The notes below the pieces were generated by a model, which did no database searches, was not told where the DNA came from, and saw nothing but the letters and a program-made list of their open reading frames with translations. DNA of 64,000 bases from Cryptosporangium aurantiacum. GTDB lineage: Bacteria; Actinomycetota; Actinomycetes; Mycobacteriales; Cryptosporangiaceae. The first letter of the stretch is position 1. Every line of letters begins with the position of its first letter. The DNA lies in the NCBI RefSeq assembly GCF_900143005.1, contig NZ_FRCS01000007.1, forward strand, positions 124,001 to 188,000. Direction: 5' to 3'. A program made the translations under genes and the position numbers. Of the stretch, positions 7,354-36,768 are shown piece by piece.

Positions 7354-8558
7354 ACACCTCGTCGATCGTCTGGCTGGTCGCGTCGCGGGAGCTGCGGACG
7401 CGCCTGAGGGCGAAGTCGTTCGTCATCGGGACACTCGGACTGCTGGCGGCGATCACCGGGTACCTCGTGCTCAGCGCGTGGCTCGCCAGTTCGTCCGGGC
7501 CGGTGATCGGGCTCTCCGGCCCGATCAGCCAGCTGCGCCCGGCCATCGAGGCCGTCGCCGAGAGCCTCGACGAGGACATCGAGGTCCGGATCGTCGGCAA
7601 CGTGGACGACGCCCGCCGCGAGGTGCGGGACGGCGACCTGGACGTGTTGCTCATCGGCTCGGCGCCCGCCCCGGTCGCGGTGGTGGACGAGGAACTGGAC
7701 GACAGCGTCCGCGGCATCCTCACCGCGGTCCTGCAGCAGCAGGCGCTCGAACGCGCGCTGGAACGGGCCGGTGCCGATCCGGCGGCGGTGCAGCAGGCGG
7801 TCGCCGGGGCCGGGGTCCGGGTCGACGCGCTGTCCGAACGCGACCCGCTGGAGGGCGAGCGGCTCGTGCTCGCCGCGGTCGCGATGACGCTGCTCTACAT
7901 CGCGCTGATCACCTACGGCAGCGGCGTGGCGCAGGGCGTCGTCGAGGAGAAGACCAGCCGCGTCGTGGAGTTGCTGCTGGCCACGGTCCGCCCGTGGCAG
8001 CTGCTGATGGGCAAGATCCTGGGCATCGGGCTGGTAGGGCTGGTCCAACTCGTGATCCTCGGCGGCGTCGGGTTGATCGGGGCGACGCTCGCGGGGCAGC
8101 TCACGTTGCCGGCCGCCGGCGTCGGGACGTTCGTCTCGCTGCTCGGCTGGTACCTGCTCGGGTTCTTCCTGTTCGCGTCGCTGTTCGCGGCCGCCGGTGC
8201 GCTGGTGTCGCGGTTCGAGGACATGCAGAGCGTCATCTCGCCGCTGATCATGCTGCTGGCGATCGTGTTCGTCGTCGGGTTGAACCTGCTGATCCGGGAT
8301 CCGCGCAGCGAGCTCGTCGAGGTGCTGTCGCTGATCCCGCCGTTCACGACGATCCTGATGCCCGCCCGAGGGGCGCTGGGCGTGGCCCCGGCCTGGCAGA
8401 TCATGCTCGCGGTCGTCCTGACGCTGGTCGCGCTCGCGGTCACCGTGCGGCTCGCGGGCGCGGTGTACCAGCGCGGCGTGCTGCACACCGGCTCGCGGCT
8501 CTCGCTCCGCGCCGCCCTCCGCGGCCCGGACCGGCCGAAGTCCTCGAACCGGGCATGA
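7350..8558 (+). CDS. ABC-2 type exporter permease (NatB type)
   Basis: A 402-residue ABC-2 permease. One N-terminal membrane segment (about 22-45) is followed by a large outside domain of about 130 residues, then five or six membrane segments. VEEKTSRVVELLLATVRPWQLLMGKILG is the coupling region conserved in NatB-type permeases. It shares ATGA with the ATPase gene before it and ATGA with the ADP-ribosylglycohydrolase gene after it, so the three are probably co-translated. The substrate is unknown; sodium, lipid or peptide export are all seen in the family. Confidence 0.92.
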   Translation: MNTSSIVWLVASRELRTRLRAKSFVIGTLGLLAAITGYLVLSAWLASSSGPVIGLSGPISQLRPAIEAVAESLDEDIEVRIVGNVDDARREVRDGDLDVLLIGSAPAPVAVVDEELDDSVRGILTAVLQQQALERALERAGADPAAVQQAVAGAGVRVDALSERDPLEGERLVLAAVAMTLLYIALITYGSGVAQGVVEEKTSRVVELLLATVRPWQLLMGKILGIGLVGLVQLVILGGVGLIGATLAGQLTLPAAGVGTFVSLLGWYLLGFFLFASLFAAAGALVSRFEDMQSVISPLIMLLAIVFVVGLNLLIRDPRSELVEVLSLIPPFTTILMPARGALGVAPAWQIMLAVVLTLVALAVTVRLAGAVYQRGVLHTGSRLSLRAALRGPDRPKSSNRA

Positions 8559-9556
8559 GCCGCGCGCCGCGGGATCGCGCGGTCGGTGCGCTGGTCGGGC
8601 TGGCACTCGGTGACGCGCTCGGGATGCCGACCCAGAACCTGCCCCGCGACGTCGTCCGCGACCGCTACGGCGACGTGCTGGACAACCTCCACCCGGGCCC
8701 GGACGACAACCAGATCAGCCGCGGCCTGCCCGCCGGCCGGGTCACCGACGACACCGACCAGGCGGTTCTCCTCGGCGAACTGTTCGTCGCCGGGAACGGT
8801 CGGGTCGATCCGGTCGCGTTCGCCGACCGCCTCCTGCGGTGGGCGGAACACCAGGAAGCGATCGGGTCCGCGGACCTGCTCGGCCCGTCGACCCGCCGGG
8901 CACTGACGCTGCTCGGCGAGGGCGTCCCGCCGGAGGAGACCGGGCGGTGGGGCGACACCAACGGTGCCGCGATGCGCATCGCGCCGATCGGCGTCGGCGT
9001 TCCGGTCGATCCGCTGCCCCGCCTGGTCGACGCCGTCGCGCAGGCGAGCGGCGTCACCCACTCCACCGGCGTCGCGATCGCCGGTGCCGCGGCGGTCGCG
9101 GCCGCGGTCAGCGCGGGCATCGACGGGAGTCCGCTGGACAACTCGCTCCGGCTCGCCGTCGACGCCGCCCGCCTCGGCGCCGCCCGCGGCTCCTACGTGC
9201 CCGGCGCCGACGTCGCGGCCCGCATCACCTGGGCGTTGGAGCTGGTCGGCGGGCGGCCCCCGGCCGAAGCGCTGGACCTGATCTATCGCCTGGTCGGCAC
9301 CGGCCTGGCGACCCAGGAGGCGGTGCCTGCCGCGCTGGCCGTCGCCGCGCTGTTCCCCGACGACCTCTGGGACGCCTGCCGCCACGCCGCGAGCCTCGGC
9401 GGCGACTGCGACACGGTGGCGGCGATGACCGGCGCGGTCGTCGGCGCACACACCGGCGCCGGCGGCGTGCCGCACACCGCACGCGAGCGGCTGCGCGCAG
9501 CCAACCCCTCCCTGGAGCTGACCACGCTCGCCGATCAACTACTGGCGCTGCGCTAA
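8555..9556 (+). CDS. ADP-ribosylglycohydrolase (DraG family)
   Basis: A 333-residue DraG/ARH-fold hydrolase, which removes ADP-ribose from proteins or small molecules using two magnesium ions. GLALGDALG opens the fold, TDDTDQA (64-70) gives the first set of metal-binding Asp and Thr residues, and GGDCDTVAAMTGAVVGA near the C-terminus gives the second. All expected acidic ligands are present. The start overlaps the permease stop (ATGA). Its link to an exporter operon is unusual. It may act on a modified transporter or regulator, or it may simply be co-transcribed. Confidence 0.9.
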   Translation: MSRAPRDRAVGALVGLALGDALGMPTQNLPRDVVRDRYGDVLDNLHPGPDDNQISRGLPAGRVTDDTDQAVLLGELFVAGNGRVDPVAFADRLLRWAEHQEAIGSADLLGPSTRRALTLLGEGVPPEETGRWGDTNGAAMRIAPIGVGVPVDPLPRLVDAVAQASGVTHSTGVAIAGAAAVAAAVSAGIDGSPLDNSLRLAVDAARLGAARGSYVPGADVAARITWALELVGGRPPAEALDLIYRLVGTGLATQEAVPAALAVAALFPDDLWDACRHAASLGGDCDTVAAMTGAVVGAHTGAGGVPHTARERLRAANPSLELTTLADQLLALR

Positions 9557-13061: not shown

Positions 13062-14219
13062 CTACGTTGCCGGTTCACGTTCCGGCTCGGAGATCGGGTC
13101 CGTCTCCCGGGCCGGGCCGGCCGCGAGTGCGACCAGAGTGGCCAGCAGCGACGCGAGTGCGGCGACGAGGTAGGTGGTGGTGCCGTTCTGCGCGGACGTC
13201 GCCAGCACCAGACCGAGGCTGGTCAGCGCCGCGAGCCCGACCGCGGCGCCGAGTTCCTGGACGGTGGTGACCAGCCCGGACGCCGCACCCTTGAGGCGGT
13301 CGTCGACGCCGGTGGCCAGCGCGAACATCGGGGCGTAGCCGAGGCCGCTGCCCAGCGCGACCAGCGCGAGGCCGGGCAGCACGCCGACCAGGTAGCCGCG
13401 CTCGGCGAACGCGGTCAGCAGCGCGACCCCGGCGGTCGTCGCGATCCCGGCGCCGACCAGCAGCGGCCGCGCCCCGACCGTCGCCACCGCCGCTCCGGCC
13501 TTCGGGCTGACCAGCAGGACGATCGCGGTGATCGGGGCGAACGCCAAGCCGGTCTGCATCGCGCTGAAGCCCAGTTCGTTCTGCAGTACCAGCGAGGTCA
13601 CGTAGAGGGCGGTGGTGACCGTGGCGACGTTCAGCGCGAGCACCGTGTTGCCGACGACGACGCCGCGTTGCCGCAATAAGCCCGGCTCCAGCAGCGGCCG
13701 TCGGCTGCGGGACTCCGCGACGACCAGCGCGACCGCGAGCACGACGAGGACGACGACCACGGCGGTGAGGCCGCTGCTCCACCCGCCGTTCGCCGCGGCG
13801 AGGACCAGGCTGCCGCCGCCGACGACGGTGACCAGCAGCAGCGCGTTCGGCAGGGCGGGGCGACCGGCCCCGGAGCCGGGCAGGGCGGGCAGGGCCCTCC
13901 GCAGCCCCAGCAGCGCCACCACCCCCACCGGAACGTTGATCAGGAAGATCGACCGCCACCCGGCCAGGTCGGTGAGCACGCCGCCGAGCAACTGTCCGGC
14001 GATCGCGCCGGCCGAGGCGACCGACGCCCAGAGGCCCAGCGCCCGGCCTCGGCTCTTCTCGTCGTCGAAGACGCGGAGCAGCGCGCTGAGCGCGTTCGGT
14101 GACACCAGCGCGGCGCCGATGCCCTGCAGTGCCCGGGCGGCGAACAGCTGCCACGGCGCGGTGGTCACCCCGCACAGCAGCGACGCGACGACGAACAGTG
14201 CGAGCCCGGCGAGGATCAC
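13062..14219 (-). pseudogene. MFS drug exporter (DHA2 type) lacking its N-terminal membrane segments
   Basis: The frame encodes 385 residues with the later part of a 14-segment DHA2 drug exporter, including the motif-C-like region around LGLWASVASAGAIAGQLLGG. The only start (GTG 14217-14219) falls at ILAGLALFVVASLLCG, normally the third membrane helix. Helices 1 and 2 and the conserved GRLADRxGRR loop, about 80 residues, are absent. Reading upstream in frame, a TGA occurs seven codons earlier, so no hidden N-terminus joins. Twelve membrane segments remain. It is divergent from a TetR gene, the usual arrangement for regulated exporters. I think it is a 5'-deleted gene; a functional 12-helix variant is less likely. 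Confidence 0.7.
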
Positions 14220-14222
14220 CGG

Positions 14223-14279
14223 GTTTCCGTATCACCATTCGGAAACTCCGCCGGGCGGCAGGGACCGGCAAGGTTTCCG
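14223..14279. promoter_or_regulatory. Candidate TetR operator with three GTTTCCG half-sites
   Basis: Between the truncated exporter and the TetR gene the sequence has GTTTCCG (14223-14229), CGGAAAC (14240-14246) and GTTTCCG (14273-14279). The first two form a perfect 7-10-7 inverted repeat only a few bases from the exporter frame. The position and dyad suit autoregulation by the adjacent TetR protein. Confidence 0.6.
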
Positions 14280-14299
14280 ATCTGTGGTTCGATAATTGG

Positions 14300-14875
14300 G
14301 TGGCCCGGCCCCGCAAGGTCTCCGACGACGAGCTACTCCGCGCCACCGCACGGGCGATCGGCCGGTACGGGCCGCAGTTCACGCTCGCTCAGGTGGCCGC
14401 CGAAGCCGGCGTCGCCACCGCCACCGCCGCCGCCCGGATCGGCTCCAAGCGGGAACTGCTGCGCTGGATGGCGTCCACCGCGACCGCGGGGTTGCGCACG
14501 GAGGTGGCCGCGGCGGCCGGAGCGGCCGCCGATCCGGTCGACGCCGTCCGCGCGGCCACGGTCAGCGGGATCGAGGGCATCGACGACCCGTCGACCGCGA
14601 TGAACCACCTGGCGCAGCTCGGGTCGGAGCTGGCGGATCCGGAGCTGCGCACCGAGATCGCCGCGATGTGGAACGCGTACCGGCACGCGCTGGAGGACCT
14701 GGTCGCCGCGGCGGCGCTGCCCGGCGCACCGCCGCCCGCCGAGGCCGCGCGGTTGCTGGCCGCGCTCGTGCACGGGACGCAGGTGCTCTGGGCGGTCGAG
14801 CCACGCGGGGAGCTGCGCGACGAGCTGACGACGCACGTCGACACGGTGCTGCGGGCCTGGGGGGCACCGCCGTGA
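14300..14875 (+). CDS. TetR-family transcriptional regulator
   Basis: A 191-residue TetR-type regulator. The N-terminal helix-turn-helix runs from about 8 to 52 (DELLRATARAIGRYGPQFTL then GVATATAAARIGSKRELL). The C-terminal ligand domain is all helical and Ala-rich. GTG 14300 is the first start past the half-site cluster. The gene is divergent from the MFS exporter and ends as TGATG with the beta-helix gene, so it may also be co-transcribed with that gene. Likely role: repression of the neighbouring exporter and itself. Confidence 0.85.
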   Translation: MARPRKVSDDELLRATARAIGRYGPQFTLAQVAAEAGVATATAAARIGSKRELLRWMASTATAGLRTEVAAAAGAAADPVDAVRAATVSGIEGIDDPSTAMNHLAQLGSELADPELRTEIAAMWNAYRHALEDLVAAAALPGAPPPAEAARLLAALVHGTQVLWAVEPRGELRDELTTHVDTVLRAWGAPP

Positions 14876-16395
14876 TGGCCCGGCACCGCCGTCCGTCGGT
14901 GTGGCGGCGCACCCGCTGGAGACGGGTGGTGCCGGTGCTGGTCGCGGCGGTGCTGCTGGTCTCGGGTGTGGTGTCCACGGTGGTGGGTGGATCCGACTCG
15001 GCCGACGAGGCACCCGTCGCCGCGGCCCGGTCGGGCGGGCCGGCATTGCCCGCACCCGGCGGCGGACGCGCACCGGCGCCCGACGGCACCTCGCCGGGAG
15101 CGGCTTGTGCCGTGCCGGCGGGTCCTCCGGCAGGGTCCCCGTCGGCCGCCGCGTCGCCCCAGCCCTCCTCGCGCGTCACGGGGCCGCCCGTGACGGGGCC
15201 GCCCGTGACGGGGCCGCCCGTGACGGGGCCGCCCGTGACGGGGCCGCCCGTGACGGGGCTGCCCGAGGCGACGCTGACGGTGGGGGCGGCCGGGCGGTAC
15301 CGCACGATCCAGGCGGCGGTGGACGCCGCCTCGGCCGGCGACACGATCGAGATCGCCGGCGGCACGTACTCCGAGGTCGTCACGATCCGGACGAGCGGGC
15401 GCCCCGGCGCCCCGCTCACGCTCCGCGCCCGGCCCGGCGCCACCGTGATCCTCGACGGCCGCCGCACGCTCCCGTCGCCGTCCGGCTCGGCCCGCGGGCT
15501 GATCACGCTCGACGAGCAGGAGCACGTCAGGCTCTCCGGCCTCACGGTCCGGAACTCCCGCCGTCACGGCATCTACGCGGGCTTCGCGAGCCACGTCGTC
15601 ATCGAGAACAGCGAGGTGTCGTACGCGGCGGACGGCGGGATCCTGGTCGGCGACGGCTCCGACGTCGTGCTCACCTGCAACCGCGTCCACCACAACAACG
15701 CGGCCGCCCGCGGCGGAGACATCGAGGCCGCGGCGAACGAGGGCGTCACCCTCTACAACGTCAGCGACTTCGAGATCGCGTACAACCGGGTGTACGCGAA
15801 CGACGAGGAAGGCATCGACGTCAAGAACGGCACCCGCGGCGGGTCGATCCACCACAACGACGTCTACCGCAACAACGGGCCGAACATCTACGTCGACGGT
15901 GCGAGCGACGTCCGGATCCACGCGAACCGGATCTTCGATGCCCGCGGGCCGACGAAGGCCGGGATCGGCCTGGCGGTCGAGTCCGGCGGAACCGCTCGCA
16001 ACGTCGACATCTACAACAACGTCATCCACGGCAACCCGGGCGGCGGCGTCGACTTCTGGATCGGCAGCTACGCCGACGTGCGGGTTTTCTACAACACGAT
16101 CTACCGCAACGGGCGCGCCGCGATCCGCGCGCTCGGTGGTGGGGTCAGCGACTCCGTCGCCCGGGACAACATCGCGTACGGCAATCCGCTGCCTCGCGTC
16201 CCCGGGTTCGTTCTGGAGCGGAACCTGACGACCGACCCGAGGTTCGTCGACCTGGCCCGCGGGGACGTCCGGCTGCGGCCGGGATCGGCCGCGATCGACG
16301 CGGGGTCGCGGAGAACCGCGCCCGCGACCGATTTCACCGGCGCCGCCCGTCCGGCCGGATCCGCTCCCGACCTCGGGGCTTACGAATACCGCTAG
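14875..16395 (+). CDS. Secreted right-handed parallel beta-helix protein
   Basis: A 506-residue exported protein. An Arg-rich N-terminus (RRPSVWRRTRWRR) and a hydrophobic stretch (about 18-38) form a signal peptide or membrane anchor. A Pro/Gly/Ala-rich linker with six VTGPP units follows (about 101-130). The rest begins with YRTIQAAVDAASAGDTIEIAGGTY, the classic start of pectate-lyase-like beta-helices, and then shows repeated coils such as VVIENSEVSYAADGGILV and IYNNVIHGNPGGGVDF. It may bind or cleave an acidic polysaccharide outside the cell. Family members include lyases, epimerases and non-enzymatic adhesins, and no lyase active site is obvious. It starts inside the TetR stop (TGATG). 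Confidence 0.88.
   Translation: MARHRRPSVWRRTRWRRVVPVLVAAVLLVSGVVSTVVGGSDSADEAPVAAARSGGPALPAPGGGRAPAPDGTSPGAACAVPAGPPAGSPSAAASPQPSSRVTGPPVTGPPVTGPPVTGPPVTGPPVTGLPEATLTVGAAGRYRTIQAAVDAASAGDTIEIAGGTYSEVVTIRTSGRPGAPLTLRARPGATVILDGRRTLPSPSGSARGLITLDEQEHVRLSGLTVRNSRRHGIYAGFASHVVIENSEVSYAADGGILVGDGSDVVLTCNRVHHNNAAARGGDIEAAANEGVTLYNVSDFEIAYNRVYANDEEGIDVKNGTRGGSIHHNDVYRNNGPNIYVDGASDVRIHANRIFDARGPTKAGIGLAVESGGTARNVDIYNNVIHGNPGGGVDFWIGSYADVRVFYNTIYRNGRAAIRALGGGVSDSVARDNIAYGNPLPRVPGFVLERNLTTDPRFVDLARGDVRLRPGSAAIDAGSRRTAPATDFTGAARPAGSAPDLGAYEYR
15175..15264 (+). repeat. 15-bp coding tandem repeat (six VTGPP units)
   Basis: Six adjacent 15-bp units at 15175, 15190, 15205, 15220, 15235 and 15250 encode VTGPP five times and VTGLP once. 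Four units are identical (GTGACGGGGCCGCCC). They form the flexible linker between the membrane anchor and the beta-helix and are likely to vary in copy number between strains. Confidence 0.95.
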
Positions 16396-27535: not shown

Positions 27536-28477
27536 CTACCAGCTCGCGGACGTGTGGTGGCGGGCCAGGGGCGCCAGGTCGGCGTCGTGTTGAGCGACGA
27601 CCTGGCGCACCCGGTACTCGGCGAGCGGTCCTAGCGTGTCGTAGAGCTCGGTGAACAGCGCGTGGGCACGCGCCCGGGGCCAGTCCGGCGGCAGCAGCGC
27701 GTCGGGAAGGCCCGGGTCCAGCGCCGGGATCCGCCGCCACGCGTCCATCAACCGGACCCGCCCGACCAGCGCCTCGGCCGCGCCGACCGCACCCGCTCGG
27801 GCGCGGTCGCGCAGCGGGTGGAACTGCTGCAACAGCGCGGCGTACGCGGAGGATGCGCCCGCCGACGGCCACGCGTCGGCGGGCGGCTCGTCGAGCATCT
27901 CGACCCGGAACACCGAGACCGCGTCCAGTGCGTACCGGGCGAGGACGGCTTCGACCGCGGCCACCGGCGTGCGCGGCGCGATCCAGACCCCGTCCACCAC
28001 CGCGGCGAACCCCAGCCAGCGCAGCGCGGTCCGCACCTGCGCGCGAACCGACCGTCGTTCCTCGGACACCCGGAACGCCACCAGCGTCCACCGCCCGTCC
28101 CAGGTGTCGTCCGGCCGTCCGAATGCGACCAGGCGTGCGGCGGCCTCCCGCAGCTCGCCGACCGCGGACGGGGTCAGCCGCAGCCGGCTGCGCCGGCCGG
28201 CCCGGACGCTCCGGAGCGTGCCCCGGTCGGTGAGCCGCCCTGCTGCCCGCCGGGTGTTCGCGGCCGACGTCCCGAGCGCCGTCATCAGGTCCACGACCGC
28301 TCCGAGCGGCACCTCCGCGTCCTCGTGCAGCCAGAAGTCGCCGAACAGCGTCACGAGGAGGTGCTGCGGTCCCGCCCCCGCTCGCGGCAGCAGTCCCGAC
28401 GGTGTTTCGTCTCGCGAGGCGGTCGGCGAAGAAACTGTCACACGAGGACTGTACGGCGCGCCGTGTTTGGGCCACAC
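27536..28477 (-). CDS. PaaX-family transcriptional regulator (first of two)
   Basis: A 313-residue PaaX-like regulator. The N-terminal winged helix (about 35-110) contains LLVTLFGDFWLHEDAEVPLG and a TSAANTRRAAGRL recognition helix, then RSVRAGRRSRLRLT. WDGRWTLVAFRVSEERRSVRAQVRTALRWLGFAAVVDGVWIAP is the characteristic middle domain. PaaX proteins repress phenylacetyl-CoA and related genes and respond to acyl-CoA thioesters. GTG 28477 has GGAG upstream; a GTG at 28441 is possible. It is divergent from the ABC/CoA-transferase/dehydratase-like operon, which it probably regulates, and a second PaaX gene closes the far end. Confidence 0.88.
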   Translation of the reverse strand: MWPKHGAPYSPRVTVSSPTASRDETPSGLLPRAGAGPQHLLVTLFGDFWLHEDAEVPLGAVVDLMTALGTSAANTRRAAGRLTDRGTLRSVRAGRRSRLRLTPSAVGELREAAARLVAFGRPDDTWDGRWTLVAFRVSEERRSVRAQVRTALRWLGFAAVVDGVWIAPRTPVAAVEAVLARYALDAVSVFRVEMLDEPPADAWPSAGASSAYAALLQQFHPLRDRARAGAVGAAEALVGRVRLMDAWRRIPALDPGLPDALLPPDWPRARAHALFTELYDTLGPLAEYRVRQVVAQHDADLAPLARHHTSASW

Positions 28478-28500
28478 TCAGCTCCACAACATGTGACAGT
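28434..28500. promoter_or_regulatory. Spaced inverted pair ACTGTCACA ... TGTGACAGT
   Basis: ACTGTCACA (28434-28442) and its exact reverse complement (28492-28500) flank the start region of the PaaX gene. Their centres lie 58 bases apart. They are candidate binding sites for PaaX or another looping regulator between the regulator gene and the operon start at 28550. Confidence 0.45.
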
Positions 28501-28549
28501 CCAAATTACGGACGTCATAAGATCGTCTCAATGACGAAGGGGTCAGGAG

Positions 28550-29464
28550 ATGTGGACGTTAGCGAGGCCCGTCCTGGCCGCAGCGCTGGGAGCCGTTATT
28601 TTGGCGCTCTCGGCCTGCGGTGGCACCACCGCTCCGGAGAAGAAGCCCACACCGTCGGTCGACGCGAAAGCGCTGTTCCGGCAGGAGCTGCACGACCGGC
28701 TCCCACAATCGGTGAAGGACGCCGGTGAGATCGTCTTCGCCGGTGACCCCCACCCGCCCTACCGGGTCGTCGCCAAGGACGGCACGGTCACCGGCTTCGA
28801 CCCCGACCTCCAGGCCGCGCTCGGGGCGGTGCTCGGCGTCAAGACCCGGATCGAGGTGATCGCCGGCCTGCCCGCCGCGCTCACCGGCATGAAGGCGAAG
28901 CGCTTCGACGCGTTCAACGGCCCGGTGAAGGACACCGCGAAGCGCGAGGTCGACTTCGACAACGTCGTCTACATGACCTCGCGGACCGCCTACCTGTTCA
29001 AGGCCGACGCCAAGGTCAAGGCTGCGGGCGACCTCTGCGGCGCCACGGTCGCGTACGTCTCCGGCAGCATCGTCGAGGGTCAGCTCGAAGCGCTCTCGTC
29101 CTGGTGCGGCAAGCAGGGCAAACCCGCGGTGAAGGGCCAGCCGCTCGCCGACACCAACGCGACGATCCTGTCCGTCCGATCCGGACGCGCCGACGCGCTC
29201 GGCGCGACTCAGGCCGGCGTGCTCGACATCGTCAACGCGGGCGACAAGGGCGCGTTCCGGTACGTGCTGCAGGAGGACGCCCAGGGTGCGGGCGTCGACC
29301 AGCTGGCGCTGCTCGCGCCGAAGGCCGGCGGGCTGGGCCCGGTCATTTTCGAGGCGTTCAAGGTCCTGTTCGAGACCGGCACCTACGACGAGCTGATGAA
29401 GCGCTACGGGCTGACCGACGTCGCGGTCGACGCACCGGCGATGAATGTGGCGGGTAAGGCGTGA
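28550..29464 (+). CDS. ABC importer substrate-binding lipoprotein (polar amino-acid type)
   Basis: A 304-residue solute-binding protein of the SBP_bac_3 type. Signal peptide and lipobox LSAC place lipid-modified C23 at the membrane. IVFAGDPHPPYRVVAKDGTVTGFDPDLQAALGAVLG is the classic opening of amino-acid-binding lobes, and FDAFNGPVKDTAKREVDFDNVVYM the second hinge strand. A GGGG run lies about eight bases before the ATG. It is the first of seven genes that all overlap by ATGA or GTGA. The ligand is probably an amino acid or a small organic acid. Confidence 0.9.
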   Translation: MWTLARPVLAAALGAVILALSACGGTTAPEKKPTPSVDAKALFRQELHDRLPQSVKDAGEIVFAGDPHPPYRVVAKDGTVTGFDPDLQAALGAVLGVKTRIEVIAGLPAALTGMKAKRFDAFNGPVKDTAKREVDFDNVVYMTSRTAYLFKADAKVKAAGDLCGATVAYVSGSIVEGQLEALSSWCGKQGKPAVKGQPLADTNATILSVRSGRADALGATQAGVLDIVNAGDKGAFRYVLQEDAQGAGVDQLALLAPKAGGLGPVIFEAFKVLFETGTYDELMKRYGLTDVAVDAPAMNVAGKA

Positions 29465-30339
29465 CGACGGTGACCCCCACCGTGTCGACGACCGCGCCAC
29501 CGGACACCGCCGACTACGCCGCCCGCGCCCGCACCCGGCTCCGCTGGACGCACTGGCTGATCGGCGCGGTCCTGTTCCTGGTGGCCGTGCAGCTCGTTCG
29601 GTTCCTGGTGTTCAACAAGGCGTTCGAGTGGGACGTCGTCGGGCAGTACCTGTTCGAACCGGCCGTGCTCCGCGGCCTGGGCACGACGCTGCTGCTCGCG
29701 GTCGCAGCGATGGTCGTCGGGCTGCTGCTCGGCACCACGATCGCGGCCTGCCGCCTGAGCGCCTTCGCGCCGCTGCGCTGGGCCGGCACCGCGTACGTGA
29801 CCGTGTTCCGCTCGATCCCGCCGCTGGTCCAGCTGATCTTCTGGTTCAACCTCGGCTACCTGCTACCCCGGATCTCGCTCGGCGTCCCGTTCGGGCCGGA
29901 GTTCGTCAGCTGGTCGAGCAACGACCTGATCACGCCGGTCACCGCCGCGGTGCTCGGCCTCGGGCTCAACGAGGCCGCGTACCTCGCCGAGATCGTCCGC
30001 GCCGGGCTGATCGGTGTCGACGCCGGGCAGCGCGACGCGGCCCGGTCGCTCGGTTACACCGGCTGGCAGACGTTCTCCCGGGTCGTGCTGCCGCAAGCGA
30101 TGCGGACGATCATCCCGCCGACCGGCAGCCAGTTCATCACGGTCCTCAAAGGAACGTCGCTGGTCAGCGTCATCGCGATGGCTGACCTCCTGTACTCGGT
30201 GCAGACGATCTACGGCCAGACGTACCAGGTCGTGCCGCTGCTGGTCGTCGCCTGCGCCTGGTACCTGCTCGTGGTCTCGGTGTTCAGCCTGGGCCAGCAA
30301 CGGCTGGAGAAGCACTTCGCACGGGGGGAGAAACGATGA
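29461..30339 (+). CDS. ABC importer permease (amino-acid HisM/GlnP type)
   Basis: A 292-residue inner-membrane permease with about five to six helices and the family loop LNEAAYLAEIVRAGLIGVDAGQRDAARSLGY, which contacts the ATPase. It starts with GTG 29461, overlapping the binding-protein stop by four bases, and ends in the same kind of overlap with the ATPase gene. A single permease gene suggests a homodimer. Confidence 0.93.
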   Translation: MTTVTPTVSTTAPPDTADYAARARTRLRWTHWLIGAVLFLVAVQLVRFLVFNKAFEWDVVGQYLFEPAVLRGLGTTLLLAVAAMVVGLLLGTTIAACRLSAFAPLRWAGTAYVTVFRSIPPLVQLIFWFNLGYLLPRISLGVPFGPEFVSWSSNDLITPVTAAVLGLGLNEAAYLAEIVRAGLIGVDAGQRDAARSLGYTGWQTFSRVVLPQAMRTIIPPTGSQFITVLKGTSLVSVIAMADLLYSVQTIYGQTYQVVPLLVVACAWYLLVVSVFSLGQQRLEKHFARGEKR

Positions 30340-31109
30340 CGGTCCTTCGGCTGCGGGGCGTCCGTAAGGCCTACGGCACGCACACCGCGCTCGACGGCGT
30401 CGACCTGGACGTGCAGGCCGGTGAGGTCGTCGCGGTGATCGGCCCGTCCGGATCCGGGAAGTCGACGCTGGTGCGGTGCGTGCACCAGCTGGAGACGATC
30501 GACGACGGTGCGATGTACCTCGACGGCGAGCTGCTCGGCCGACGCCGGGTCGGTGGGCACCTGCGGGCGCTGCCGGAGAAGGCCGTCGCCGCGCAGCGTC
30601 GTCGCATGGGCATGGTGTTCCAGCAGTTCAACCTGTTCCCGCACCGCACCGTGCTGCAGAACATCACCGACCCGCCGCGGCTCGTCCACGGCCGGTCCCG
30701 CGCGGACGCCGTCGAGCGGGCGAACGAGCTGCTGACCAAGATGGGCCTGGAGGACAAGGCGTCCGCCTACCCCCGGCAGCTGTCCGGCGGGCAGCAGCAG
30801 CGGGTCGCGATCGCCCGCGCGATGGCCACCCGCCCGCGGATCCTGCTGTTCGACGAACCGACCAGCGCACTCGACCCGGAGCTGGTCGACGAGGTGCTGA
30901 AGGTGGTGCGCGACCTGGCCGCGGCCGGCATGACGATGGTGCTGGTCACCCACGAGATGGCGTTCGCCAGGGACGTCGCCGACCGGGTCGTGTTCATGGA
31001 GGCCGGCCGGATCGTCGAGACCGGCCCACCGGCGGAGCTGTTCGAGGCCCCGAAGACACCCCGGCTCCGGGAGTTCCTGCGCCGCTACGCGGTAGGAGCC
31101 GCCGAATGA
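30336..31109 (+). CDS. ABC importer ATPase (GlnQ type)
   Basis: A 257-residue ABC ATPase of the polar amino-acid group. Walker A is GPSGSGKST (36-44), the Q-loop is in MVFQQFNLFPH, the signature is LSGGQQQRVAIARAM, Walker B is ILLFDEPTSALDPE and the H-loop is VTHEM. All sites are intact. It overlaps the permease gene before it and the CapA-like gene after it. Confidence 0.95.
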   Translation: MTVLRLRGVRKAYGTHTALDGVDLDVQAGEVVAVIGPSGSGKSTLVRCVHQLETIDDGAMYLDGELLGRRRVGGHLRALPEKAVAAQRRRMGMVFQQFNLFPHRTVLQNITDPPRLVHGRSRADAVERANELLTKMGLEDKASAYPRQLSGGQQQRVAIARAMATRPRILLFDEPTSALDPELVDEVLKVVRDLAAAGMTMVLVTHEMAFARDVADRVVFMEAGRIVETGPPAELFEAPKTPRLREFLRRYAVGAAE

Positions 31110-32221
31110 TCACGCTGCTCGCCGTCGGCGACCTGATCCTCGACGAGCCGGACCCGGACCGTTTCTTCGACGGCACCCGGAACGTGCTGACCGGCGCCGA
31201 CGTCGCGATCGGTCACGTCGAGGTCCCGCACAGCACCTCGACCGCGCAGCTGAGCACCGACGTCCCGGCGCCGCCGGCCGACCCGGCGCACGTCGCGGCG
31301 CTCTCCCGGGCCGGGTTCGACGTCGTGACGCTGGCCGGGAACCACGTGTTCGACGTCGGGGAGCAGGGCGTCCTGGACACCGTGCGGCACTGCCGCGACG
31401 CCGGGCTGGTGGTTACCGGCGCGGGCCCCGACCTGGCGTCCGCGCGGACCCCCGCGGTGCTGACGACGGCCGGGCCGCGGGTCGCGGTGCTCAGCTACAA
31501 CTGCGTCGGGCCGCGGGAGTCGTGGGCGACCAGCCGGAAAGCCGGCTGCGCGTACGTCCGGGTGCTCACCCACTACGAGCTCGACCACGCCAGCCCGGGC
31601 GGCCCACCGGAGACGTTCACGTTCGCGGACCCGGCGAGCCTCGACGCGATGACCGCCGACGTCGCCGCGGCACGGGCGCACGCGGACGTCGTCGTCGTGG
31701 CGTTTCACAAGGGGGTCGGGCACACGCCCGCGCTGATCGCGATGTACGAGCGGCCGGTCGCGCACGCCGCGATCGACGCGGGTGCCGACGTGGTGATCGC
31801 GCACCACGCGCACATCCTGCGCGGGGTCGAGGTGTACCGCGGACGGCCGATCTACCACGGTCTCGGCAACTTCGTCACGGTCACCCGGGCGCTGAACCCG
31901 TCCGGTGGCGACAGCGCCGAACGCGCCGCCTGGGCCCGGAAGCGGGTCGAGCTGTACGGGTTCGCGCCGGACCCGGCGATGCCCGCGTACCCGTTCCACC
32001 CGGAGAGCCGCAACACCGTGATCGCGTCCTGCCGGTTCGGCGACGACGGCGCGCTGCTCTCCGCCGGGCTGATCCCGTGCTGGATCGACGAGACCGGAGC
32101 GCCGCAGCCGACCGACGACCCGCGGGTCGCCGGTTACGTCGAGGACATCACCAGGCGCGCCGGCTTCGACACCACGTTCGACTGGGAGGAGGGGCAGATC
32201 GTGCTGCCCGCGACCCGATGA
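31106..32221 (+). CDS. CapA/PgsA-like metallophosphatase-fold protein
   Basis: A 371-residue protein of the bacterial capsule-synthesis CapA family, a branch of the calcineurin-like phosphoesterase fold. Metal-site motifs are VGDLI, LAGNHVFDVG, VVVVAFHKGVGH and VIAHHAHILRGVEVYRGRPIYHGLGNF. The classic NLE motif is changed to GHVEVP. No signal peptide is seen, so unlike PgsA it is probably cytosolic. CapA proteins are usually linked to poly-gamma-glutamate. Here it is locked by overlaps between a transporter and a CoA-transferase, so it may hydrolyse a phosphate or amide in the imported compound (inference). Confidence 0.85.
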   Translation: MITLLAVGDLILDEPDPDRFFDGTRNVLTGADVAIGHVEVPHSTSTAQLSTDVPAPPADPAHVAALSRAGFDVVTLAGNHVFDVGEQGVLDTVRHCRDAGLVVTGAGPDLASARTPAVLTTAGPRVAVLSYNCVGPRESWATSRKAGCAYVRVLTHYELDHASPGGPPETFTFADPASLDAMTADVAAARAHADVVVVAFHKGVGHTPALIAMYERPVAHAAIDAGADVVIAHHAHILRGVEVYRGRPIYHGLGNFVTVTRALNPSGGDSAERAAWARKRVELYGFAPDPAMPAYPFHPESRNTVIASCRFGDDGALLSAGLIPCWIDETGAPQPTDDPRVAGYVEDITRRAGFDTTFDWEEGQIVLPATR

Positions 32222-33453
32222 CCGTGCGCACGGACGGCCCGCTGACCGGCGTCACCGTCGTGGACCTGACCACCGCACTGGCCGGGCCCTACGCGACGCT
32301 GCTGCTCGCGGGCCTGGGGGCCCGGGTGATCAAGGTGGAGAAGCCGGGCGGTGGGGAGACCGCGCGGGACAACGCGCCGTACGTCGGCCGGGACGGCCTG
32401 AAGACCCAGCGCACCGACCCGGCCGACATGTCGGTCTCGATGCTGCTGCGCGGCCGGAACAAGGAGGCGGTGACGCTCGACCTGAAGCAGCCCGCCGGTG
32501 TTCAGGTGCTGCACGACCTGGTGCGGCGGGCGGACGTCCTGGTCGAGAACTACAGCACGGGCGTCACCCACCGGCTCGGCATCGACGCGGCGGCGCTGCT
32601 GGCGGTCAACCCGCGGCTGGTCTACACGTCGATCACCGGGTTCGGCACCGACAACCCCGGCAAGGCGATGGATTCGGTGATCCAGGCGCTCTCCGGCGCG
32701 ATGCTCACCTCCGGTGAGCCGGGGTCCGACCCGGTCCGGTTCGGTCTGCCGATCGGTGACCTGCTCGCGCCCATGTACGCGGTGATCGGGACGCTGTCCG
32801 CGTTGCGAGAGGTCGAGCGCACCGGACAGGGACAGCACGTGGACGTGTCGATGCTCGGCGCGCTGACGTCGCTGGTGGCCTGCGAGCCGTTCGACGCCTA
32901 CGAGCGCCTCGGCTGGGAGCAGCGGACCGGCAACCAGGTGCCGCGGCTCGCCCCGTTCGGCATCTTCGCGACGGCCGACGGGCACGTGAGCATCTCCGCG
33001 CCGACCGACGCGTTCGCGCACCGCGTGTTGACCGCGATCGATCGGCCCGACCTGGTGGCGGATCCGCGCTTCGCCACCAGGGACGCGCGGGTCGGACGGG
33101 CCGACGAGTTGCACGCGCTGATCGGGGAGTGGACGCGGGGGCGCACCACGGCTTCGGCGGTGGCCGCGCTGACCGCGGCCGGCGCCCCGTGCGCGCCGGT
33201 GCGGAGCCCGGCCGAGGCGGTGGCCGATCCGCTGGTGCGGGCCCGGAACGAGGTGGTCCCGCTGCGGCATCCGGAGTTCGGTGCGGCCGCGGAGCTGTCC
33301 GGCACCGGCCTGCCGATCGTGTTCTCCCGGTCGCAGGCGGGGTTCGACCGGCCGCCGCCGCGGCTCGGCGAGCACAACCGCGCGGTGTTCGGGGAGTTGC
33401 TGGGGTACTCCGACGCGGACCTGGAGACGCTGCGCGACAAGGGCGTGCTGTGA
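32218..33453 (+). CDS. Class III CoA-transferase (CaiB/BaiF/FRC family)
   Basis: A 411-residue family III CoA-transferase. GVTVVDLTTALAGPYATLLLAGLGARVIKVEKP is the hallmark N-terminus and AMDSVIQALSG carries the acyl-accepting Asp (D152). Length and motif order are normal. It would move CoA between two acids, so it can make the acyl-CoA needed by the two dehydratase-like subunits encoded next. It overlaps both neighbours (ATGA before, GTGA after). Confidence 0.92.
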   Translation: MTVRTDGPLTGVTVVDLTTALAGPYATLLLAGLGARVIKVEKPGGGETARDNAPYVGRDGLKTQRTDPADMSVSMLLRGRNKEAVTLDLKQPAGVQVLHDLVRRADVLVENYSTGVTHRLGIDAAALLAVNPRLVYTSITGFGTDNPGKAMDSVIQALSGAMLTSGEPGSDPVRFGLPIGDLLAPMYAVIGTLSALREVERTGQGQHVDVSMLGALTSLVACEPFDAYERLGWEQRTGNQVPRLAPFGIFATADGHVSISAPTDAFAHRVLTAIDRPDLVADPRFATRDARVGRADELHALIGEWTRGRTTASAVAALTAAGAPCAPVRSPAEAVADPLVRARNEVVPLRHPEFGAAAELSGTGLPIVFSRSQAGFDRPPPRLGEHNRAVFGELLGYSDADLETLRDKGVL

Positions 33454-34616
33454 GCACTGCGCCGGTGGTCGGGGTGGTCGGTGGTGACGTCCCGGTCGAG
33501 CTGATCACCGCGGCCGGTGCGGTGCCGGTGCGGCTGTCCGGGTCGCCGGACGTGGACCGTGAGCTGGGTGACCGGTACCTCGGCACCGGGGTCGACCCGG
33601 AGGCGCGGGCGTTGCTCGCGGGGCTGTTGGCGGGTGCGTGGCCGGGGCTGGACGCGCTGGTCGTCGGGCGGGATTGTGAGGCGTCGTCGCGGTTGTTCTA
33701 CGCGCTCCGGGAGTTACACCGCACGGGGGCCGCGCCCGGCCTCCCGCCGGTGCTCCTCGCCGACGTGCTGCACCTGCCGCACCGCAGCACGACCCGCTAC
33801 GTCGCCCACCGCCTCGGTGAGCTGCGCACCCGCCTGGCCGACGTCCTCGGTACGGCCCGGCCCGGCCCCGCCGACGCGGCGCCCGCCGACACGGCGCCGG
33901 CGGACGGCGTGCTGGCGGACGCCGCGCTGGCCGAGGCGGTGCGGGCGCACGACCTGCTGCGGGCACGGCTCGCGACGCTCGTTCGTCGGCGCCGGGCAAT
34001 GCCGATGCGCTCCGGGCCGCCCGAGCTGTCCGGTGTGGACGCGCTCGCGCTCTACGCCGCCACGGAGACCATGCCGGTCGCCGACGGCATCGCCCTGCTC
34101 GACCGCACGCTCGTCGGACCGCCGGACGCCGCCGCGGTGCCGCGCGCGGTCGGTGCGCTGGAAAGTCGCGGGCAGGCGGACGGCGCGCGGCGTCGCGTCC
34201 CTCTGCGTCGCGTCCCTCTGCGTCGCGTCCATCTGACCGGGAGCAGCCACGATGGACCGTCGGTCTACCTGGCGTTGGAGAACGCGGGCTACGTGGTCGT
34301 CTCCGACGACCACGACCGCGGTGACCTGCTCGCGCGCGGCCAGGTGGGCGACCCGGCGAACCTCGCCGAGTTCTACCAGTCCGCGCGGCCGACCGCGGCC
34401 CGGTCCGCGCCGCGGGTCCGGGCGGCGCTGCTCGACGCCGACCTCACCGAGAGCGTGCCGGACCTGGTCGTGGCGTACATCCGGGAGCACGACGACGCGC
34501 CGAGCTGGGACCTGGCCGCCCAGCGAGCGGTGTGCGCGCGGCGCGGTGTTCCGCTGGTCGTCGTCGACCGGCAGCAGTACGGCCAGATAGACCTCGAACG
34601 CTTGGAGCAGGTGTGA
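33450..34616 (+). CDS. 2-hydroxyacyl-CoA dehydratase/benzoyl-CoA reductase-like subunit, cysteine-poor (first)
   Basis: A 388-residue protein of the HgdB/BcrB-like family. GVVGGDVPVELITAAGAVPVRLSG and LDALVVGRDCEASSRLFYALRELHR match the first conserved blocks, and GVPLVVVDRQQYGQIDLERLE the end. True enzymes use three Cys to hold a [4Fe-4S] cluster; here only C76-like RDCEAS is at a family position, the first Cys site is Gly and a second lone Cys (RAVCARRG) is elsewhere. A low-complexity Ala/Pro/Asp insert (PADAAPADTAPADG) and a three-unit RRVPL repeat interrupt the middle. GTG 33450 overlaps the CoA-transferase stop. It probably dimerises with the next gene's product; the chemistry is uncertain. 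Confidence 0.75.
   Translation: MSTAPVVGVVGGDVPVELITAAGAVPVRLSGSPDVDRELGDRYLGTGVDPEARALLAGLLAGAWPGLDALVVGRDCEASSRLFYALRELHRTGAAPGLPPVLLADVLHLPHRSTTRYVAHRLGELRTRLADVLGTARPGPADAAPADTAPADGVLADAALAEAVRAHDLLRARLATLVRRRRAMPMRSGPPELSGVDALALYAATETMPVADGIALLDRTLVGPPDAAAVPRAVGALESRGQADGARRRVPLRRVPLRRVHLTGSSHDGPSVYLALENAGYVVVSDDHDRGDLLARGQVGDPANLAEFYQSARPTAARSAPRVRAALLDADLTESVPDLVVAYIREHDDAPSWDLAAQRAVCARRGVPLVVVDRQQYGQIDLERLEQV
34191..34235 (+). repeat. 15-bp coding tandem repeat (three RRVPL-type units)
   Basis: Units at 34191, 34206 and 34221 read CGTCGCGTCCCTCTG twice and CGTCGCGTCCATCTG once, adding a basic stretch of RRVPL/RRVHL units to the first dehydratase-like subunit. It looks like a recent in-frame expansion within a weakly constrained loop. 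Confidence 0.93.
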
Positions 34617-35839
34617 CCGAACGGCTCCCCTCGGCACTGGCCGCCACGCAGTACCAGCGGCGGTGGTTCGCCGAGCTGCGTGCTTCCGGCGTGCCGATCG
34701 CGCTGGTGAACGCCGACGCCCCGCAGGAGATCTTCCGCGCGATGGAGATCCCGTACGTGGTGAGCCAGTGGTGGGCGTCGATCGTCGCGGCGAAACAGCG
34801 GACCGCCGACCACCTCGCGCTGCTGGCCGCGCGCGGCTACCCCGACCACACCGAGCAGTACAGCTCGCTGTCGTTCGCCAGCTCGTTCGGAGTCGACGAT
34901 CCGCCGTGGGGCGGGCTGCCGACACCGTCCGTACTCCTCGGCGAGGCGACCGGCGACGTCACCCGGAAGATCTTCGAAGCCTGGCACGAGGAGACCGGCG
35001 TCCCGTACTACGCGCTGGAGTCCGCCGCGCACGACCCGGTGCCCGAGCGCTGGTGGGAGCTCATGCCGCACGACTGGGAACACACGATCGGCACCCCGCG
35101 CCTCGACCTGATGCAGGAGGAGCTGGTCGGGCTGATCCGGTTCCTCGAGATGCACACCGGCCGGCGGTTCTCCGAAACCCGGTTCCGGCGGGTGATGGAC
35201 CTGGCGAACGAACAGGCCGAGTGGAACCGCCGCACGAGGGACCTGATCGCTTCCGCCCGCCCCTGCCCGGTAGCGGTCACCGACATCGTGCCGAGCGTCA
35301 TGGTTCCGCAGTGGCACCGCGGCACCGAGTGGGCCCGCGACGCCGCCCGGACGCTCTACGAGGAGGTGGCGCAGCGGGTCGGCGCGGGGCGCGGGGCCGG
35401 CGCCGAACGCGCGCGGCTGATGTGGATCGGCCGCGGGCTCTGGTTCGACCTGGGCTTCTACCGCCGGTTCGAGGAGCGGTACGGAGCGGTGTTCGTCTGG
35501 TCGATGTACCTGGCGATCGCGGCGGACGGGTACGCCCGGTACGGCCCCGACCCACTGCGGGCGCTGGCGGCGCGGTTCGCGGCGTTCACCGACCAGCTCT
35601 ACACGCCGCCCTGGTCGGTGGAGTGGTACGTCCACCAGGCCCGCACGCACGGCGTCGACGGGGTCGTGCACCTGGTGTCCGAGGACGGCCGCGGCAGCTG
35701 GTTCACCACGTCCGCGCTGCGCGCGGCCGGCATCCCGGTGCTGGAGCTGCGCGCCGACAACGTCGACAGCCGCGGTTACGACCCGGACGCCGCCGAGCGA
35801 ACCGTCGGCGCCTGGCTCACCGAGCAGGTGACCGGCTAG
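34613..35839 (+). CDS. 2-hydroxyacyl-CoA dehydratase/benzoyl-CoA reductase-like subunit, cysteine-depleted (second)
   Basis: A 408-residue partner of the preceding protein. GVPIALVNADAPQEIFRAMEIPYVVSQWWASIV, LPTPSVLLGEATGDVTRKIFEAWHEETGVPYYALES, LMWIGRGLWFDLGFYRRFEERYGAVFV and GIPVLELRADNVDSRGYDP follow the HgdA/BcrC block order. In iron-sulfur members the first block ends in Cys-x-Tyr, the second has a Cys-rich segment and the last has His-Cys-Lys. Here those places read WWASI, GEATGDVT and SEDGRGSW. The only Cys is in ARPCPV. No activator ATPase gene is in the window. It may have a cluster-free function. GTG 34613 overlaps the previous stop; its TAG shares four bases (CTAG) with the convergent PaaX stop. 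Confidence 0.75.
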   Translation: MTERLPSALAATQYQRRWFAELRASGVPIALVNADAPQEIFRAMEIPYVVSQWWASIVAAKQRTADHLALLAARGYPDHTEQYSSLSFASSFGVDDPPWGGLPTPSVLLGEATGDVTRKIFEAWHEETGVPYYALESAAHDPVPERWWELMPHDWEHTIGTPRLDLMQEELVGLIRFLEMHTGRRFSETRFRRVMDLANEQAEWNRRTRDLIASARPCPVAVTDIVPSVMVPQWHRGTEWARDAARTLYEEVAQRVGAGRGAGAERARLMWIGRGLWFDLGFYRRFEERYGAVFVWSMYLAIAADGYARYGPDPLRALAARFAAFTDQLYTPPWSVEWYVHQARTHGVDGVVHLVSEDGRGSWFTTSALRAAGIPVLELRADNVDSRGYDPDAAERTVGAWLTEQVTG

Positions 35840-36768
35840 ACCCAGGCGGCGACCGTGTGGTGGCCGACCGAGGCGGCCAGCTCCGGCTCGTGCTGGGCGA
35901 CGATTTGCCGGAACCGCAGCGCGGCCAGCTCACCCAGCCCGTCGTAGAGATCGGTAAACAGCGCGTGCGCTGCGGGCCGGGGCCAGTCGCCCGGCAGCAG
36001 CTCGGCCGGAAGGTCCGGATCCAGGCCGGGGAAGACCCGCCAGGACTCCAGCAGCCTGGTCCGCGCGGTCAACGCCGACGCCGGGGTCACCGAGCCGGTG
36101 CGGATGTCCTCGCGCAGCGCGGCGTGGTCGGCCAGGAAATCCTGGTACGCCGTCTGGATGCCGGTCAGGTCCCAGGCGGTGAGCGGCGAGCAGCCGACCG
36201 CGGTCTCCACCACCCGGAACGCGCTGAGGTTGTCGACGCCGACCGCCTGGAACACCTCGCGCAGCGCGTCGAGCCCGGCGTGCGGCGAGATCCAGAGCCC
36301 GTCGAACAGCGGCGCGAACCCGAGCCACCGCAGGTAACTGCGCAGCTGGTGGCGGAGCCGCCGCTGTTCCTCCGGGACGCTGAACGCGGCGAGCGTCCAG
36401 CGGCCGTCCCAGGGGCGGGCGGCAGGTCCGAAGCCGAGCACGGTGCCTGCCTTGTGCCGGATGTCCTGCGCCCCAGTGGCCGAGAGCCGGTAGTACGCGT
36501 GTCTGCCGACCCGCGCGGCGTCCAGGACGCCGCGTTTCACCAGGCGGTTCGCGGTGGCGCGGGCACTGGTCTCGCTGATCCCGAATTCGGCGACGAGGTC
36601 GATGAGGACGCCGAGCGGCAGGGCGGCGTCCGCGTCGAGCCAGTGTTCGCCGAGCAGGCTGGTCAGCAGCCGCTGCGGAGAGCCGCCGGCCTGGTGGCGG
36701 GGGAGGACCGACCCCTCCATCGCCCGCCGCAGGACGAGCACCTCGGCGGGTGACGGTTCGGCAGGCAT
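35836..36768 (-). CDS. PaaX-family transcriptional regulator (second of two)
   Basis: A 310-residue PaaX-like protein, similar in every block to the one at 27536-28477: LLTSLLGEHWLDADAALPLGVLIDLVAEFGISETSARATANRL is the winged helix, WDGRWTLAAFSVPEEQRRLRHQLRSYLRWLGFAPLFDGLWISP the middle, and HALFTDLYDGLGELAALRFRQIVAQHEPELA the end. ATG 36768 is the only good start. It faces the seven-gene operon and overlaps its stop by four bases. Two PaaX copies at both ends suggest control by a CoA-thioester intermediate of this pathway. Confidence 0.9.
   Translation of the reverse strand: MPAEPSPAEVLVLRRAMEGSVLPRHQAGGSPQRLLTSLLGEHWLDADAALPLGVLIDLVAEFGISETSARATANRLVKRGVLDAARVGRHAYYRLSATGAQDIRHKAGTVLGFGPAARPWDGRWTLAAFSVPEEQRRLRHQLRSYLRWLGFAPLFDGLWISPHAGLDALREVFQAVGVDNLSAFRVVETAVGCSPLTAWDLTGIQTAYQDFLADHAALREDIRTGSVTPASALTARTRLLESWRVFPGLDPDLPAELLPGDWPRPAAHALFTDLYDGLGELAALRFRQIVAQHEPELAASVGHHTVAAWV

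Follow-up and report, generated by a model that had tools for sequence, protein, structure and literature searches.

A 2-hydroxyacyl-CoA dehydratase-like protein pair in Cryptosporangium aurantiacum that lacks the cysteine sets binding iron-sulfur clusters in its relatives

A 64,000-nucleotide stretch of the Cryptosporangium aurantiacum genome (contig NZ_FRCS01000007.1, positions 124,001 to 188,000 of the forward strand; here called the window) encodes two adjacent proteins, HGDA and HGDB, that are members of the 2-hydroxyacyl-coenzyme A (CoA) dehydratase/benzoyl-CoA reductase family by Pfam, by profile and by predicted fold. The pair is clearly related to the radical enzymes of this family, yet lacks their iron-sulfur (Fe-S) cluster ligand sets, and an ASKHA ATPase activator like theirs was not found in its own genome. 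The best reading of these sequences is an oxygen-tolerant derivative with new chemistry. Since the cluster cysteines are nearly all gone and the usual ATP-driven activator was not found, air-tolerant chemistry has probably taken the place of the old radical chemistry. That the two proteins form a heterodimer devoid of both Fe-S clusters and of the activator, acting on acyl-CoA by non-radical means, we judge to be an evenly balanced proposition. We lean slightly towards the broader proposal that they belong to an undescribed branch of the family in largely aerobic lineages, in which clusters, activator and catalytic glutamate have been lost and the emptied pocket has been turned into a new active site, acid/base or metal, where polar chemistry on acyl-CoA takes place. 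None of the titles and abstract openings listed from the open-licence PMC literature described a cluster-free branch; as a sequence group it is already visible, in Pfam HGD-D and in a dehydratase-like plasmid annotation.

Both proteins exceed the curated cut-off of the Pfam HGD-D model (HGDA 2.8e-14, HGDB 3.6e-42), and the three HGD-D matches in the whole 9.58 Mb genome all fall within them. Searched of the PDB as a single sequence, HGDB finds HadB, BzdO and MbdO (1.4e-9 to 2e-5), whereas HGDA is found by profiles only, its single-sequence search returning no PDB chain and no plasmid record; in NCBIfam, HGDA has no match and the matches of HGDB are all below cut-off. Family profiles find BzdN (1.2e-25) and HadC (2.1e-20) for HGDA, and MbdO (2.5e-27), BzdO (7.5e-25) and HadB (2.8e-20) for HGDB. 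AlphaFold2 models of the two (mean predicted local distance difference test scores of 86.5 for HGDA and 90.0 for HGDB) have as their best Foldseek matches 8s02_B (E 1.6e-17, template modelling (TM) scores 0.75/0.77) and 3o3o_A, which is HadB (E 1.2e-17, TM 0.82/0.84), respectively, and all 20 matches listed at E <= 0.001 for either subunit are BCR, HAD or DCCP chains. The models, the Foldseek matches and the tree agree on a fold of two alpha/beta domains in non-identical A- and B-type subunits. The original prediction, made from the DNA alone, had called these overlapping + strand frames a dehydratase-like pair and had named an unrelated fold as the outcome that would undo it; profile and predicted fold both bear out the family. 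A chance resemblance was considered and rejected on the profiles, the fold and the 325 relatives described below. From the profile and Foldseek matches, HGDB is by homology the HadB/BzdO-like, substrate-binding subunit, and HGDA is BzdN/HadC-like. The HGDA of the window also carries insertions, modelled with low confidence and absent from nearly all aligned relatives, at whose sites there are 15-base tandem repeats (33863-33959 and 34190-34235).

Relatives were collected by a scan of 84,980 species genomes, which gave 325 stretches with a relative, the best 80 of which were used as loci (L numbers). The positions of the cluster ligands were set by alignment to HadC, BzdN and Cys-bearing paralogues. 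For HGDB the alignment comprises 87 cluster-lacking rows, the window included, and seven Cys-bearing homologues; for HGDA it comprises 76 rows, again with the window, being a set of 77 minus the Cys-bearing L088. HGDA hits with under half of the query aligned were dropped (eight of 84, including L063, L074, L075 and L081), and nothing usable came from L066 or L069. Eight further HGDA rows, mostly more distant, were also compared, one of them (L096) being among the 76 as well. According to PMC11971306, the cluster ligands of BzdO are Cys95, Cys128 and Cys380, and the double-cubane ligands of BzdN are Cys36/73/100/263/293/327.

The full cluster-Cys set is lacking in both subunits in every row of the group that was aligned, as had been predicted for the pair. 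The pair has three cysteines in 796 residues, again as first noted: Cys76 and Cys362 in HGDA and Cys218 in HGDB. None of the three ligand positions of HGDB is a cysteine in the window, and one of the three in HGDA is. The residues that have replaced the cysteines differ from those first proposed, so that of the suggested alignment at the ligands the loss stands and the named replacements do not. Gly, Trp, Ser or Thr had been named, with no ligand-site cysteine implied; the alignment gives Asp49, Cys76 and Asp348 in HGDA, Cys76 itself occupying the second ligand position, and Glu81, Gly114 and Gly359 in HGDB (Table 1). In the eight further HGDA rows, Asp348 is kept throughout, position 49 is Asp in two, Glu in one and Pro or Ser in five, and position 76 is never Cys. 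At BzdN Cys36/73/100/263/327, HGDA has Gly11, Asp49, Cys76, Asp289 and Asp348, and the six-Cys set of an [8Fe-9S] cluster is thus absent; the only cysteine of HGDA besides Cys76 is Cys362, the BzdN Cys293 position not being mapped in detail.

In HGDB, position 81 is Glu in 68 of the 87 rows (otherwise R 6, L 5, C 3, D 2 and Y, Q and P 1 each), position 114 is Gly in 83 (C 3, T 1), and position 359 is variable (A 37, P 27, V 9, S 6, T 3, N 3, D 1 and G 1, the last being the window). In all seven Cys-bearing homologues the first and third positions are Cys; their second Cys lies in an inserted column beside position 114 in six and at 114 in one, and for this reason the second ligand place of HGDB is uncertain by one residue.

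According to PMC11971306, the active site of BzdO includes Glu65 and Ser44, with Tyr97 and Tyr298 binding the thioester oxygen. Both tyrosines are kept, as Tyr83 (Tyr in 87/87 rows and in 7/7 Cys-bearing homologues) and Tyr299; in three further Cys-bearing rows Tyr83 is present and position 299 is unaligned. The catalytic Glu, found in all seven Cys-bearing homologues, is replaced by Gln52, a match that rests on HadB, MbdO and the Cys-bearing rows, the BzdO alignment starting after Glu65. Ala34 stands in place of BzdO Ser44 in all 87 rows, and Arg274 in place of BzdO Gln274 in 83 of them; nor is Gln the rule in the Cys-bearing rows. The pattern apparent from the alignment is one of acyl-CoA recognition kept, with cluster ligands and acid removed, and the retention of both thioester tyrosines favours an acyl-CoA substrate.

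The activator was sought with two models. TIGR00241 (CoA_E_activ) has no match in the C. aurantiacum genome, against matches in six of 14 control genomes, and PF01869 has one partial match there, below cut-off and on another contig (76 of 271 positions, 23 bits); the predicted lack of an activator in the window thus extends, for these two models, to the genome. TIGR00241 was also searched for in 23 other carrier genomes, drawn from the hosts of 22 of the best 80 loci and two further genomes of the genus: it was over cut-off in two, gave a weak partial match only in two and none in 19. The two activator-bearing carriers are the L011 genome (Prauserella flavalba) and the L076 genome (Rhodococcus jostii), where the activator adjoins separate HGD-D pairs on contigs other than that of the cluster-free pair. 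There is one such pair in P. flavalba and there are two in R. jostii, and all six proteins have the three cysteines. Both versions thus occur in the same genomes, and the ligand assignment is in this way directly controlled from within. The cluster-free pair in these genomes offers the activator no cluster ligand set. The Cys-bearing pairs and the ASKHA activators beside them lie at L105, L109 and L119 (R. jostii) and at L106, L110 and L120 (P. flavalba), the combination occurring twice on one contig in R. jostii; both species belong to actinobacteria generally regarded as aerobic.

How did the cluster-free pair arise? In a tree of 71 rows (midpoint root, long branches flagged; L101 and L102 left out), the cluster-free rows fall into two clades, one of the 51 HGDB rows (100/100) and one of the seven HGDA rows (100/91), and each groups with its own subunit type. 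As each cluster-free clade sits with its own type, the tree favours loss of both clusters from an already existing heterodimer; the Cys-bearing rows are few (nine HGDB-type, which are not one clade, and four HGDA-type). Among eight pairs of relatives, the window not included, dN/dS (the ratio of non-synonymous to synonymous substitution rates) is 0.04-0.20 for HGDB, 0.11-0.33 for HGDA and 0.04-0.25 for the CoA-transferase encoded beside them, values that indicate purifying selection on HGDA and HGDB in every pair. The window's HGDB pairs in the tree with that of L004 (Pseudonocardia), and transfer of the gene set between lineages is possible.

What chemistry might the pair perform? Most likely it would be polar chemistry, either cofactor-free or with a simple metal, on an acyl-CoA that the CoA-transferase supplies; the original prediction's CoA-ester hydrolase, lyase or binding protein may each apply. 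The ATP-binding cassette (ABC) transporter encoded upstream (Table 1) would import a polar organic acid or amino-acid-like compound, and the CoA-transferase would turn it into a thioester. Tyr83 and Tyr299 of HGDB would hold the thioester oxygen, and Asp115, Asp358 and often Glu81, in the emptied cluster pocket of the same subunit, would act as acid/base; an enolate-type or tetrahedral intermediate stabilised in this way could lead to elimination, isomerisation or hydrolysis. The part played by HGDA would be structural, with Asp348 and in most cases Asp49 closing the site. To release the product, its CoA may be handed back through the CoA-transferase, as happens in the Fld/Had acid cycles. The gene set, common to Actinomycetota and Alphaproteobacteria, is probably catabolic.

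Several observations weigh against this proposal. Glu81 is not universal in HGDB, as the counts above show, and the proposed base residues of HGDB sit in loops. HGDA is poorly conserved, with a mean column identity of 47%. The five segments corresponding to the BzdO CoA channel show no more than a weak excess of invariant residues (21/60, compared with 76/348; p 0.023). The loss of the BzdO Ser44 equivalent says little, because Ser is kept in just four of the seven Cys-bearing homologues. In the two carrier genomes that have an activator, it could in principle serve both kinds of pair. A metal at the carboxylate/Cys positions is compatible with the data. Finally, the HGDB of three alphaproteobacterial loci (L094, L095 and L097) has Cys at two of the three ligand positions; these cysteines may have been retained or regained, and the proteins are possibly an intermediate state. 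The three loci are Croceicoccus/Novosphingobium plasmids with HGDB at about 14000-15260 and, beside it, a CoA-transferase of ~700 residues; L094 and L095 have an extra partial family match.

The alternative that fares best, which we consider possible but doubtful, is that the emptied pockets are mononuclear metal sites, with Zn, Mn, Fe or Mg acting as a Lewis acid on the acyl-CoA or on an attacking water. The ligands would be Asp49, Cys76 (or Ser) and Asp348 in HGDA and Glu81, Asp115 and Asp358 in HGDB. In the window's HGDA, each position once held by a cluster Cys does carry a potential ligand, the third without exception in the 76 rows, and the Asp/Cys/Asp set is suggestive of a metal site. 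Moreover, the residues at HGDA 76 and HGDB 81 vary together over the 76 rows: Cys76 occurs with Glu or Asp at HGDB 81 in 64 of 66 cases, and Ser76 with neither in seven of ten (Fisher 1.8e-6). This co-variation may reflect coupling across the subunits or just descent; it tracks clades and is to that extent confounded. The full site, moreover, is not conserved, Asp49 being gone in five and Cys76 in all of the eight further rows.

It is unlikely, in our view, that the pair is non-catalytic and serves as an acyl-CoA-binding partner or regulator of the CoA-transferase. Such a role would suit the direct proximity of the CoA-transferase gene in 69 of the 80 loci, and the retention of the thioester tyrosines in proteins whose catalytic Glu and cluster ligands are gone. 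Asp115 and Asp358, however, are nearly invariant (86 of 87 rows each) and are absent from the Cys-bearing homologues, and the dN/dS of HGDB is like that of the CoA-transferase, which suggests a new active site. Lower still do we rate the possibility that the pair assembles an Fe-S cluster of unusual type, bound through Asp/Glu, and depends on some unrelated reductase for activation. A minority of [4Fe-4S] clusters are known to have Asp as a ligand, HGDA has one Cys at a ligand position, and the three alphaproteobacterial HGDB proteins keep two; but the window's HGDB, with Cys218 as its sole cysteine, has none at these positions, no activator was found in its genome by the two models, and the host lineages are mostly aerobic. 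That the pair is a decaying remnant of a canonical dehydratase, as the long branch and the private, partly short-repeat, low-confidence insertions of the window's HGDA might hint, is scarcely credible, given dN/dS well under 1 for both genes in all eight pairs of relatives, an intact seven-gene set and wide conservation.

Seven genes on the + strand at 28550-35839 look like one operon, in the order solute-binding protein, permease, ATPase, CapA-like protein, class III CoA-transferase, HGDA and HGDB, with a 4-base overlap at all six junctions; PaaX-type repressor genes flank it on either side (Table 1). A PaaX operator was sought in the divergent region 28478-28549, where there are short inverted repeats only, none of them convincing. 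The CapA-like protein also matches the NCBIfam lasso-peptide epimerase MslH model, below cut-off, and the nearest PDB relatives of the CoA-transferase are CaiB/BaiF, YfdE and the formyl-CoA and succinate-HMG CoA-transferases.

Table 1. Coordinates in the window of the operon genes, the flanking repressors and the aligned active-site positions of HGDA and HGDB
Feature	Position	Strand	Details
PaaX-type repressor, divergent from the operon	27536..28477	-	Pfam PaaX, PaaX_M, PaaX_C; TIGR02277 below cut-off
Family 3 solute-binding protein	28550..29464	+	Pfam SBP_bac_3 3e-13; PDB relatives are amino-acid binding proteins
ABC permease, polar amino-acid type	29461..30339	+	Pfam BPD_transp_1; HEQRo_perm_3TM over NCBIfam cut-off
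ABC ATPase, polar amino-acid type	30336..31109	+	Pfam ABC_tran; NCBIfam EhuA/GlnQ/TcyN below cut-offs
CapA-like (PGA_cap) protein	31106..32221	+	Pfam PGA_cap 8.1e-58; PDB relatives 8gq9, 8gqb, 8ith
Class III (CaiB-type) CoA-transferase	32218..33453	+	Pfam CoA_transf_3 5.4e-110
HGDA, 388 residues, GTG start	33450..34616	+	BzdN/HadC-like subunit
HGDA Asp49, first cluster-Cys position	33594..33596	+	D 75, E 1 of 76 rows
HGDA Cys76, second cluster-Cys position	33675..33677	+	C 66, S 10 of 76 rows
HGDA Asp348, third cluster-Cys position	34491..34493	+	D 76/76 rows; 8/8 further rows
HGDB, 408 residues, GTG start	34613..35839	+	HadB/BzdO/MbdO-like (substrate-binding type) subunit
HGDB Gln52, at catalytic Glu position (BzdO Glu65)	34766..34768	+	Q 86/87, T 1
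HGDB Glu81, first cluster-Cys position, and Tyr83	34853..34861	+	Residue counts in the text
HGDB Gly114-Asp115, second cluster-Cys position	34952..34957	+	Uncertain by one residue
HGDB Tyr299 (BzdO Tyr298, thioester oxygen)	35507..35509	+	Y 87/87 and 7/7 Cys-bearing homologues
HGDB Asp358-Gly359, 359 being the third cluster-Cys position	35684..35689	+	Asp358 in 86/87
Second PaaX-type repressor, convergent with HGDB	35836..36768	-	Pfam PaaX, PaaX_M, PaaX_C; TIGR02277 below cut-off

By their record titles the best 80 loci are all from Actinomycetota, and seven Alphaproteobacteria plasmid records have an HGDB at 37-40% identity. Four of these records were inspected, and the two among them that are annotated list CapA, tripartite ATP-independent periplasmic (TRAP) permeases, a 'hypothetical protein', CoA-transferase and HGDB; the 'hypothetical protein' is HGDA, as it matches the HGDA profile. 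Their label for HGDB, '2-hydroxyacyl-CoA dehydratase family protein', implies a dehydratase activity that is unlikely given the missing parts.

The core of the gene set is constant. HGDA stands directly before HGDB in 76 of the 80 loci and CapA directly upstream of the CoA-transferase in 64; 63 loci include a PaaX homologue. The adjacent triple of CoA-transferase, HGDA and HGDB, seen in 69 loci, was missed in 11: L064, L067 and L071 have room for a transporter gene between the CoA-transferase and HGDA, such a gene being called in L064 and L067; the contig of L069 is cut; HGDA hits are only partial in L074, L075 and L081; L032 and L080 are just over the distance limit; and L063 and L066 have no clear adjacent HGDA. 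In L103 and L104, HGDA and HGDB lie in one open frame.

The transporter type differs between lineages. A solute-binding protein and permease of polar amino-acid type occur in 57 of the 80 loci, while 15 loci have a polyamine-type binding protein and 11 have an oligopeptide-type permease; other neighbours are alpha/beta hydrolases of four kinds (53 loci), an amidohydrolase (21), a cytochrome P450 (20) and an AMP-ligase (17). These are raw counts, without a control at random loci, and the gene calling, by a simple GC-frame rule, is incomplete. At L101 and L102, two loci of the window's own genus, a set of CoA-transferase, HGDA, HGDB and PaaX genes stands apparently beside another type of ABC transporter; identity to the window is about 60% for the CoA-transferase, 41% for HGDA and 62% for HGDB. 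In L096 (Rhizobium sp. SSA_523), a gene of the mandelate-racemase/enolase superfamily (7942-9126) lies upstream of two CoA-transferases, HGDA and HGDB, possibly a hint of a hydroxy-acid substrate.

In an even sample of the phylum (296 genomes), P0002 was matched in 29, at E < 1e-100 in three, the C. aurantiacum genome included, and at 6e-20 or weaker in the others. Among 61 near relatives, matches were confined to this genome and two others of its genus, a third of the genus having none. From these counts, the branch is widespread but patchy.

If the proposal is right, a cluster-dependent, oxygen-sensitive family of radical enzymes has a natural cluster-free branch, which would offer a test both of what the fold can do without metal and of how a radical enzyme may change its trade. 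Among known systems, the had and fld clusters also have a neighbouring class III CoA-transferase. HadBC (3O3M/N/O) has the same fold, with HGDB corresponding to HadB and HGDA to HadC; all three Cys positions of HadB have been lost, however, those of HadC have become Asp, Cys and Asp, Glu55 of HadB (alignment numbering) is Gln52, and a HadI-type activator was not found in the C. aurantiacum genome. BzdNO (8S02) and MbdNO (9G87) supply the best profile matches, BzdN for HGDA and MbdO for HGDB, and have both thioester tyrosines in common with the pair. In contrast to them, HGDA and HGDB have no [4Fe-4S] or double-cubane ligand set; Glu65, Ser44 and Gln274 of BzdO correspond to Gln52, Ala34 and Arg274, and a BzdPQ-like activator was not found. 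DCCP (6ENO) shares the fold and is a weaker match; according to PMC11971306, each monomer of the DCCP homodimer carries a double-cubane cluster, the ligand set for which is absent from HGDA and HGDB. The 4-thio-UMP desulfidase TudS, as described in PMC10611767 and PMC11971306, differs from the pair in having a single domain, in keeping a catalytic [4Fe-4S] cluster and in acting on a thionucleotide rather than a CoA ester, but it provides a precedent for non-redox chemistry in this superfamily.

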